Assembly (NCBI GenBank): GCA_001443365.1
Contig: LDXL01000008.1
Span: 142,659-206,658, forward strand
DNA: 64,000 nt
DNA from: Thaumarchaeota archaeon CSP1-1
GTDB lineage: Archaea > Thermoproteota > Nitrososphaeria > Nitrososphaerales > Nitrosopumilaceae
Reading direction: 5' to 3'
Shown: positions 3,807 to 38,705 of the stretch, piece by piece
Position numbering within the stretch: position 1 is the first letter of the stretch
How the letters are laid out: each line of letters begins with the position of its first letter
Program-made: the position numbers and the translations under genes
The notes under the pieces: generated by a model
What the model was told of the DNA's origin: nothing
The model's input: the letters and a program-made list of their open reading frames with translations, nothing else
Database searches by the model: none

Positions 3807-5321
3807 TTACTTTATAAGATATTTCCTTACTTTTACAACTGCAAATGCTGGACCAACTAAATACATTCCAAGATTTAGTAGAATAATTCCAATTCCATAA
3901 CCTAACATTTCTTCTTCAGAATCAATATCAACAACATTTAGAATTGAAAGTGAAGTAAGTAATGGAGTTATTGCAATTCTAACTGCGTTTTTAAAGATTG
4001 GGCTTTCTCTCTCCCAATCTGCAATGGTTGGAGAAAATGAGTAATAGATTGAATTGAATGTCTCCATAAACGAAGAACCTGAATCTGTGCCAAGTACAGT
4101 ATTATCTCTCATTTCCCTGAGGAATTGTACCTGCTGTGACATTTCTGAACCATATGCAGCAGTAGCAATTAGACATCCACCTCCTTTGCTGTTTGTAACA
4201 CATACTCCATTAACAAAAGTGGTTCCGGTTCCACAAATTCCTGTTTTTGGAGGTTCAACTCCAACTGCCTCGTATATGGTTTGATCTGGAAAGCTTTTGT
4301 CAAACCATGCTTTGTAGGAGGGCTCGTTGTTGTATCTATCAATGTAATACTGTGGGTCTTGGTTAGGATCTACAAATGGTGCAATATTTTTGGGAGGTTC
4401 AGGCTCTGAAAAAGAGCCAGGGATTGCCAACTCTATGGCTTCCTCAATGGTGTAATCTGGAAAGTTTGTATCAAACCAAGCTTTGTAAGATTTTTCATTG
4501 TTGTATCTGTCAAGATAATATTGTGCTCCCTTTTTGGGGTCAACAAAGTCTGGAACATTTGATTCTGGTTCAGGTTCAGGTTGTGGTGTAGGTTTAGGTT
4601 CTACCTTTGGAATGTCTGCTACTTCGTTAACAGTTATTGTGAGTGTTTCTCTATCTTCTGCCTTACCTGCTTTCACTACAATATCAAAAGTATACGAGCC
4701 AGGACCTTGAGATTCAGTTGGAGTCCATGAGAACGCACCACTTTTTGGATCTATTGAAGCGCCAGTTGGAAAATTATTGCCTAAACTAAAAGATAATGTT
4801 TCGTTTCCCCTGTATGAATTTACTAAAGCAGCTGTGAAAGCTAATTTAGTTTCTTCATTAGTTGTCAAATCATTTATGGATTTGAGTTCTATTGGTATTA
4901 CATATGCAGACGGAACAACAGGAGAACCGTCAACTGAAAAATCAAATAGCACCTTAAGTCCTTCTTCAAATGGTTGACCTTTTTCCAGAAACGCAGTAGC
5001 CGAATAGATCCCATGTTTTTTAAAAACGCCACTTGTTATTTGTATACTTTCTTCAAACTTTTTGTCGGAGCCAGCAATAGTACCCTTTGCAGTAACAAGT
5101 TTCTTGTTTCCTTTATCATCTGGAGGTTCATAAATCACAATTGAAATAATATCATATGCAGTATCAGATGTACCTGAGAACGTAATGGTATCACCAGCAA
5201 CGTAGAATGTATGCTTATCAATATCAAATGTCAATACCTTGGCATAAGCAGGGGGAACCACGATGACAGTCACTAGTACGAATATTAAGAGAGGTAATAT
5301 GAAATTCATCCTATTTAGCAT
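3807..5321 (-). CDS. Secreted Ig-like protein with tandem repeats and a CFI-box C-terminus
   Basis: A 504-residue surface protein. It has a signal peptide (residues 1-27, PPAYA cleavage region), a beta-rich N-terminal domain, a putative Ig domain at about 170-235 (FPTGASIDPKSGAFSWTP is typical of He_PIG), a Pro/Glu linker, two 40-residue repeats (about 258-300 and 316-355, sharing QYYxDRYNNExSYKAWFD) and a C-terminal module from residue 381. That module starts with GGGCLIATAAYGS and ends in a hydrophobic segment followed by KVRKYLIK. It is paralogous to the C-terminus of the protein at 58174. The CFI-box-CTERM name is known from sequence only; a sorting or anchoring role is inference. Confidence 0.8.
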   Translation of the reverse strand: MLNRMNFILPLLIFVLVTVIVVPPAYAKVLTFDIDKHTFYVAGDTITFSGTSDTAYDIISIVIYEPPDDKGNKKLVTAKGTIAGSDKKFEESIQITSGVFKKHGIYSATAFLEKGQPFEEGLKVLFDFSVDGSPVVPSAYVIPIELKSINDLTTNEETKLAFTAALVNSYRGNETLSFSLGNNFPTGASIDPKSGAFSWTPTESQGPGSYTFDIVVKAGKAEDRETLTITVNEVADIPKVEPKPTPQPEPEPESNVPDFVDPKKGAQYYLDRYNNEKSYKAWFDTNFPDYTIEEAIELAIPGSFSEPEPPKNIAPFVDPNQDPQYYIDRYNNEPSYKAWFDKSFPDQTIYEAVGVEPPKTGICGTGTTFVNGVCVTNSKGGGCLIATAAYGSEMSQQVQFLREMRDNTVLGTDSGSSFMETFNSIYYSFSPTIADWERESPIFKNAVRIAITPLLTSLSILNVVDIDSEEEMLGYGIGIILLNLGMYLVGPAFAVVKVRKYLIK

Positions 5322-27690: not shown

Positions 27691-28061
27691 TCATATACTA
27701 ATTACATCAATTCTACCGATCTTTTCAAATTAATTAGAATAAGATAGCTATTATCAGATTTGAAGATCATACCACTATGTTAAGTAAGATTTGTACATAA
27801 CACATTATGGCGAGAAAGTCAGAACATAGAAATATGTTAACAATTAAGCAAGGAAACAGGGAATTTTTCGGAAGGAACTGAAAACTCTTAAATGTTAGCT
27901 ACTCAGCAATGAGAAAGTACTGGCTTCTCGGCTATTTCTTAATTATTCCATAAAAATTTTAGTTGATTAATAGAAAAAATTACTTGTTGTACAATAACTC
28001 TTCTTTTTTTTCAAACTAGAACAGGTTTACTGATTTTTTCAATTCTCTAATTTTCATTTAA
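27691..28061. other. Gene-free stretch with a fossil of a CBS 5' region
   Basis: No gene is seen. At 27850-27900, GGAAACAGG, GGAACTGAAAA and a following CTCT-AA-TGT-AGCTA pattern align with 22838-22900, the upstream part and start of the CBS relic. It is probably another remnant of the same duplication. The remainder is AT-rich without clear structure. Confidence 0.4.
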
Positions 28062-38311: not shown

Positions 38312-38443
38312 TTAATTTTGATTAATGGAATTACTAGAATTGGAATGAATTCCTTTTTTACAAGCCAAACAAGTTCCTCCTTCCATCTCAGCTTCAAAAA
38401 TACATCGGTCGCAGTCCCTACATTTGCATGCCAGTAGTGGCAT
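38312..38443 (-). CDS. Tiny Cys-rich protein, 43 residues
   Basis: An ATG-started miniprotein with C6, C8, C11, C14 (ACKCRDCDRC) and C25/C28 (TCLACKK), the same layout as the one at 37968. The tail is Ser/Asn-rich. It is a separate copy of this family, without a clear stress palindrome. Confidence 0.65.
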   Translation of the reverse strand: MPLLACKCRDCDRCIFEAEMEGGTCLACKKGIHSNSSNSINQN

Positions 38444-38510: not shown

Positions 38511-38644
38511 ATGACGAGGACTGGAGTACTTTTCCTAGCAGGGGAAATCCTGATGTAGAACATAAACAGTCCAAGGCTTTCCTCAGAACTTTCTGTTCCT
38601 AATTCAGACGTAAACTGTATGTTTCGTCCGAACATCCTCGTCAT
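38511..38644 (-). ncRNA. Candidate multi-branched non-coding RNA, class unknown
   Basis: ATGACGAGGA (38511-38520) and TCCTCGTCAT (38635-38644) close a 134-nt element with a perfect 10-bp stem. Inside are GACG-T-AAAC/GTTTCGTC (38607-38628, loop TGTAT), TTTCC/GGAAA (38531-38547), GAAC/GTTC (38586-38598) and CTG/CAG (38521, 38567). On the minus strand a TATA-like CTTTAAGTATTATAA lies about 25 bp before 38644, so transcription would begin exactly at the stem. No open frame explains it, and it does not resemble SRP, 5S or tRNA. RNase P cannot be ruled out. Confidence 0.6.
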
Positions 38645-38705
38645 AACAGTTACGTCATTATAATACTTAAAGCATGATCATGATTTTTAGATTTGATTTT
38701 TATTA

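Follow-up and report, generated by a model that had tools for sequence, protein, structure and literature searches.

A structured RNA family with a conserved closing helix and its own promoter in Nitrosopumilaceae

The RNA gene and its surroundings

The DNA analysed here (the window) is a stretch of 64,000 nucleotides from Thaumarchaeota archaeon CSP1-1. Its minus strand carries, at 38511-38644, what we consider a structured, free-standing RNA gene; this assignment is well supported, and expression of the gene is inferred. The gene itself can be drawn at 38511-38643 on the basis of its fold z-score, its match to a family model and the spacing of its TATA box, with a predicted transcript of ~132-133 nt that starts at the first base of the closing helix P1 (38643 +/- 1, predicted without transcript data). 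On its own strand, the RNA lies 61 nt past the end of a cupredoxin-like gene, and tiny zinc-protein genes (38312-38443 and beyond) follow, the one for a 43-aa protein lying 67 nt downstream. The original prediction, made from this sequence alone, had placed the RNA downstream of tiny zinc-protein genes, but on its own strand it lies upstream of them. The segment 37968-38443 (minus strand), downstream of the RNA, holds a cluster of tiny proteins of 39, 46 and 43 aa, two of them with CxxC zinc-ribbon-like motifs.

The minus strand folds at -50.3 kcal/mol, as against -30.6 +/- 3.5 kcal/mol for 200 dinucleotide shuffles, none of which folded as well (0/200; z -5.58), while the plus strand of the same segment folds less well (z -3.9). 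P1 is composed of AUGACGAGGA (5' strand, 38635-38644) and UCCUCGUCAU (3' strand, 38511-38520), where 38644-38635 pairs with 38520-38511 as a perfect helix of 10 bp. Four internal hairpins or arms are predicted on the minus strand, with a probability above 0.8 for most pairs. The P2 hairpin, UUCGGACG...CGUCUGAA (38602-38633), has pair probabilities of 0.84-1.0. The P3 arm (38557-38599), also drawn from pair probabilities, consists of an outer helix GGAACA/UGUUCU and an inner hairpin UCUGAGG-AAAG-CCUUGGA, and it includes the GGAA found throughout the family (38582-38579); the P4 hairpin, CAGG...CCUG (38539-38552), reaches 0.93-0.96. Hence, the perfect closing stem and the minimum of three internal hairpins that had been read from the letters hold up. 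The subfamily of the window RNA has two members only, and its inner helices therefore rest on two sequences.

The promoter is represented by the TATA box TTTAAGTAT (38663-38671, minus strand), whose TTAA begins 27 nt upstream of the first base of P1; originally, a distance of about 25 bp had been suggested. A GATCA element is located just upstream of it (38675-38679, minus strand). The initial reading that the span has no open frame has to be corrected: a 48-aa ORF starting with ATG (38644-38498, minus strand) covers the whole RNA. In the other 65 family members that we aligned, this frame is mostly interrupted by stops or devoid of an ATG, and for this reason we do not regard it as a conserved coding sequence.

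Comparison with known RNA families

In Rfam, 38511-38644 had no match at the gathering threshold, and under a relaxed threshold only chance-level matches to other stretches appeared; tRNA and other Rfam families were rejected for want of a match. RNase P RNA (RF00373) did not match the locus either, and its genuine gene was found elsewhere in the same genome (G000:C5:38880-39158, 181.8 bits). Here the likeness is that of a structured stable RNA, and the window RNA contains short look-alikes, GAGGAAAG and ACAGAAA, of the archaeal type. Archaeal SRP (7S) RNA (RF01857), which resembles the window RNA in its closed stem with apical GGAA-like hairpins, was likewise rejected, giving no match at the locus and being encoded by a separate gene of 314 nt (G000:C10:7828-8141, 112.1 bits). 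Thus, both the absence of a recognisable known RNA and the survival of the candidate against RNase P RNA or another known family, a match to which would have refuted it, are borne out.

Y RNAs are similar in function only, combining a conserved closing helix as a protein handle with a variable interior, and no Rfam sequence match to them was obtained. A Y RNA/Ro RNP was rejected, as the TROVE/Ro domain (PF05731) is absent in 9 genomes bearing the family and was detected in the control genome. Members of the family end in the P1 helix without a terminal D box or ACA, and no Rfam match was found, so they do not qualify as box C/D or H/ACA guide RNAs. Nor do they qualify as riboswitches or cis-leaders, because the downstream genes differ between members. 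The RNA Tan1 (PMC5069720) is comparable in being a lineage-specific structured archaeal ncRNA without known function; it differs in its length of 229 nt, its occurrence in MG-II Euryarchaeota and its discovery via metatranscriptomics, and no sequence-level comparison with the new family was made. Carriage by viruses or plasmids received no support, as neither four viral-contig patterns nor blastn against phages and plasmids yielded a match.

No description of the family was found in the literature that we searched, although an unnamed prediction in the 2010 N. maritimus genome paper cannot be excluded, and the same literature yielded no regulatory RNA of ammonia-oxidising archaea. Overall, a free-standing structured small RNA is a known kind of molecule, and the family itself is new as far as the tools reach.

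Homologue, paralogue and third copy

A genome of the same genus (G001) encodes a homologue of the same outline, in which UACGAGG.../...CCUCGUA replaces GACGAGG/CCUCGUC. It keeps the P2 hairpin, has the P3 outer helix changed to ACGAC/GUCGU in a compensatory way and folds with z -6.2. The genes around it bear no relation to those beside the window RNA, an O-methyltransferase gene lying downstream. A clear paralogue was found in the window's own genome, 40 kb away (C8:220738-220878; fold z -3.9).

With the covariance model R3, for which 30 members were used and only P1 was paired, this genome gave three matches: the window RNA (minus strand), the paralogue at 220738 and a weaker third member at 27777-27934 of the window (plus strand). 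The first of these scored 91.6 bits over 38511-38673 (E 1e-13 for the sequence searched), and it should be kept in mind that the window RNA itself was among the 30 training sequences. The third member is intergenic (30.9 bits, E 0.002-0.003) and comprises a promoter, TTAAGTAAGATTT, and an RNA at ~27808-27934; its P1, GGCGAGAA/UUCUCGGC, has one mismatch and belongs to the CGAGA type (see below). The window RNA is thus a member of a paralogous family, which could not be seen from a single sequence.

Distribution and types of the family

The covariance searches that the original prediction had proposed as its check, negative for Rfam, revealed a family in Nitrosopumilaceae when models were built from related genomes. 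Model R1 found members in other genera; its weakest matches (G053, G009, G030, G024:C5) were noise-like when read and folded, and we set them aside. The same applies to the extra matches of model R2 (G299, G287, G155; E 6e-4 to 0.04), which was built from subfamily B alone and proved too narrow. A pattern that contained only the TATA box, the spacing and the P1 strands (ACGAGGR ... YCCTCGT) was run over 400 genomes and gave 28 matches, which fall in 26 of them; its reversed control gave 10. These matches fold as closed multi-branched RNAs of 115-140 nt. GGAA is kept in 29 of 30 members although it was absent from the search pattern. R3 matched 102 of the 185 Nitrosopumilaceae genomes that were at least 80% complete; over the whole order, 111 of 399 genomes matched, all of them Nitrosopumilaceae, and the ~170 genomes of the order's other families, serving as a negative control, gave no match. 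Nearly all matching genomes have only one to three copies.

We distinguish interior types A to G, with the window RNA assigned to type A, its paralogue to B and the copy in the apparent N. maritimus genome to C. Across subfamilies only P1, GGAA and the promoter align, the interior arms being too divergent. We gave up the attempt at one consensus for all inner helices because subfamilies A and B pair the same segment differently: B forms P2 (CUCGGA/UCUGAG) and P3 (GAACGC/GUGUUC), and A folds that segment into a local hairpin. A B/C-like P3 imposed on the window RNA costs ~10 kcal/mol. Type C copies have the same flanks in several genomes, indicating stable sites. In the apparent N. maritimus genome (L160 4831-4946), the type C RNA runs at its 3' end into that of a convergent ORF (4917-5216, minus strand) for a small acidic protein (...EEFDEDFVPEES), and the 3' strand of P1 is antisense to codons of this ORF. 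In type D copies (L127, L128, L130, L134, L135, L138, L139), P1 is immediately followed by a conserved CCTATTTCGT that may mark the 3' end or signal termination.

The weaker R3 matches represent a second type, distinguished by its P1, AACGAGA/UCUCGUU, by the conservation of a hairpin, UCUGCGUCGUAGA, and by an arm GGAAAAC...GUUUUCC that contains UCAUGUUA. Complete Nitrosopumilus genomes often have two copies, one of the CGAGG type and one of the CGAGA type. Of 28 CGAGA-type copies, 23 have GATCA at a distance of 3 nt upstream of the TATA box; among 25 CGAGG-type copies, the window RNA alone has it. The element is a possible binding site for a transcription factor.

Covariation and inferred independent transcription

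Comparison of the members demonstrates selection on the structure of the family RNA. Across 66 members, 92.9% of the P1 cells are paired, as against 32-73% in slid controls, and 35 two-sided changes are seen where shuffles gave 9.2 (0/500). The alignment was fitted to P1, but the spacing to the promoter fixes the position of the helix independently. Between the window RNA and its G001 homologue, P1 shows a G-C/U-A change, and between the CGAGG and CGAGA types a G-C/A-U change, so that the lack of compensatory changes that would have refuted the candidate was not encountered. Among these otherwise covarying pairs, the P1 core CGAG/CUCG is nearly invariant.

The inner helices add to this picture. 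Two-sided changes affect five pairs in 25 CGAGA copies (shuffled 1.0, 0/500), and G-C/A-U changes occur in P3 of this type. When the halves of the lower P2 were swapped between CGAGA sequences, which requires no alignment of the stem, cognate halves gave -8.3 kcal/mol and swapped ones -5.9 kcal/mol (0/2000 permutations). In subfamily B, P2, P3 and P4 all carry two-sided changes. The window RNA displays what defines the new family: the TATA spacing, the covarying P1 with its CGAG core, the GGAA-headed arm and the closing P1'.

In 63 of 64 members, TTAA precedes P1 by 26-28 nt, a slightly smaller distance than that from TTAA to tRNA 5' ends in the window's genome (mode 29-31 nt). With a TATA box at such a fixed spacing, the first base of P1 is the expected start of transcription. 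Each copy thus has its own TBP/TFB promoter, as the comparison establishes, and its transcription from this promoter is inferred. The comparative evidence thus upholds the original idea of a structured RNA that has its own promoter. A comparison of flanks revealed no neighbouring gene shared between types, which argues against regulation in cis and favours action in trans.

Possible function

An own promoter, a discrete gene and no conserved coding frame, which are among the marks of a trans-acting archaeal sRNA, are all present in the family. We lean towards an sRNA that acts in trans and has a common P1-binding protein, giving this reading about an even chance; expression, protein partner and targets are all inferred. 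The RNA closes on itself via P1 and bears two to four arms, one headed by GGAA. Under such a scenario, a common protein would bind the P1 handle (CGAG/CUCG) and stabilise the RNA; the near-invariance of this core amid covarying P1 pairs suggests protein recognition. The exchangeable arms and loops would exert their effect in trans, in the simplest case through base pairing with mRNA, and the diversified arms with conserved exposed segments do suggest effector modules. Such segments, namely UCAUGUUA, UUCAUGA and UACCAUG, could mask start codons, although for this seed-to-start-codon idea there are no data. Counting against the sRNA reading, there are no transcript data, and neither a protein partner nor a target has been identified.

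A real but lesser possibility is that the RNA is the scaffold of a lineage-specific RNP without mRNA pairing, serving some housekeeping task such as RNA processing, translation or DNA maintenance, so that P1 and GGAA would be protein-binding sites and the arms would merely shape the particle. The sequence invariance of CGAG/CUCG and GGAA across 30-66 members fits this, as do the roughly two copies in many complete Nitrosopumilus genomes and the tRNA-like promoter spacing. However, about half of the Nitrosopumilaceae genomes lack a detectable copy, the fast divergence of the arms is unusual for a housekeeping RNP, and the Ro/TROVE protein was missing from the 9 genomes tested. A role in cis, as a leader or riboswitch for the tiny zinc-protein genes on the minus strand, we consider improbable, even though the RNA precedes one of them by 67 nt on the same strand and riboswitch aptamers typically have closed multi-branched folds. 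Elsewhere in the family, the RNA stands before unrelated genes (the O-methyltransferase gene in G001) or ends convergent to one (the acidic gene in the apparent N. maritimus genome), no downstream gene is conserved, and there is no switching terminator or RBS hairpin.

Even less credible is a MITE-like inverted-repeat DNA element whose terminal repeats form P1 by chance. Such an element would agree with the terminal inverted repeats, the patchy detection and the presence of several copies in a genome at separate locations, but compensatory changes lie inside P1, P2 and P3, and the promoter stands at a fixed spacing outside the repeat. Moreover, the type C sites are stable, nearly all genomes have one to three copies, and phage, plasmid and viral-contig comparisons gave no match. 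As for a small protein gene with accidental structure, the 48-aa ORF does span the whole stretch from an ATG, yet in most other members the frame is broken or has no ATG while base pairing is conserved, and hardly any room is left for this explanation.

We can speculate further that the family supplies the RNA component of an RNP or regulatory system that is undescribed so far and specific to Nitrosopumilaceae. A common protein would sit on the CGAG/CUCG helix, while each cell would have two or three paralogous RNAs with different effector arms, the CGAGA type with a dedicated GATCA promoter element, making up a global regulatory layer in marine ammonia oxidisers. This wider picture is tentative, and we think it less likely than not. 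Ammonia-oxidising archaea are among the most abundant microbes of the ocean, and the family could open their post-transcriptional control to experiment. The copies in the apparent genome of the cultured model Nitrosopumilus maritimus provide exact loci that can be checked in existing RNA-seq data, namely G071:C1 ~1468830-1468945 on the plus strand and ~630618-630723 on the minus strand, with predicted transcripts of ~116 and ~106 nt, and the closing helix with its invariant core offers a defined bait in the search for a protein partner.

Sequences near the paralogue and a genome-wide repeat

Directly upstream of the paralogue in the window's genome lies a stem-closed element, GGAAGCTAA...TTAGCTTCC (L024 5509-5610, i.e., G000:C8:220508-220609), possibly another structured RNA. 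An intergenic repeat, TTCCAATTTCGCTAAAT, occurs across the genome, for example, at L024 5449-5465 and 5635-5651 and at L002 1668-1684; when up to 3 mismatches are allowed it has 50 matches, and the reversed pattern has 12. Several of these repeats adjoin the small RNA genes.
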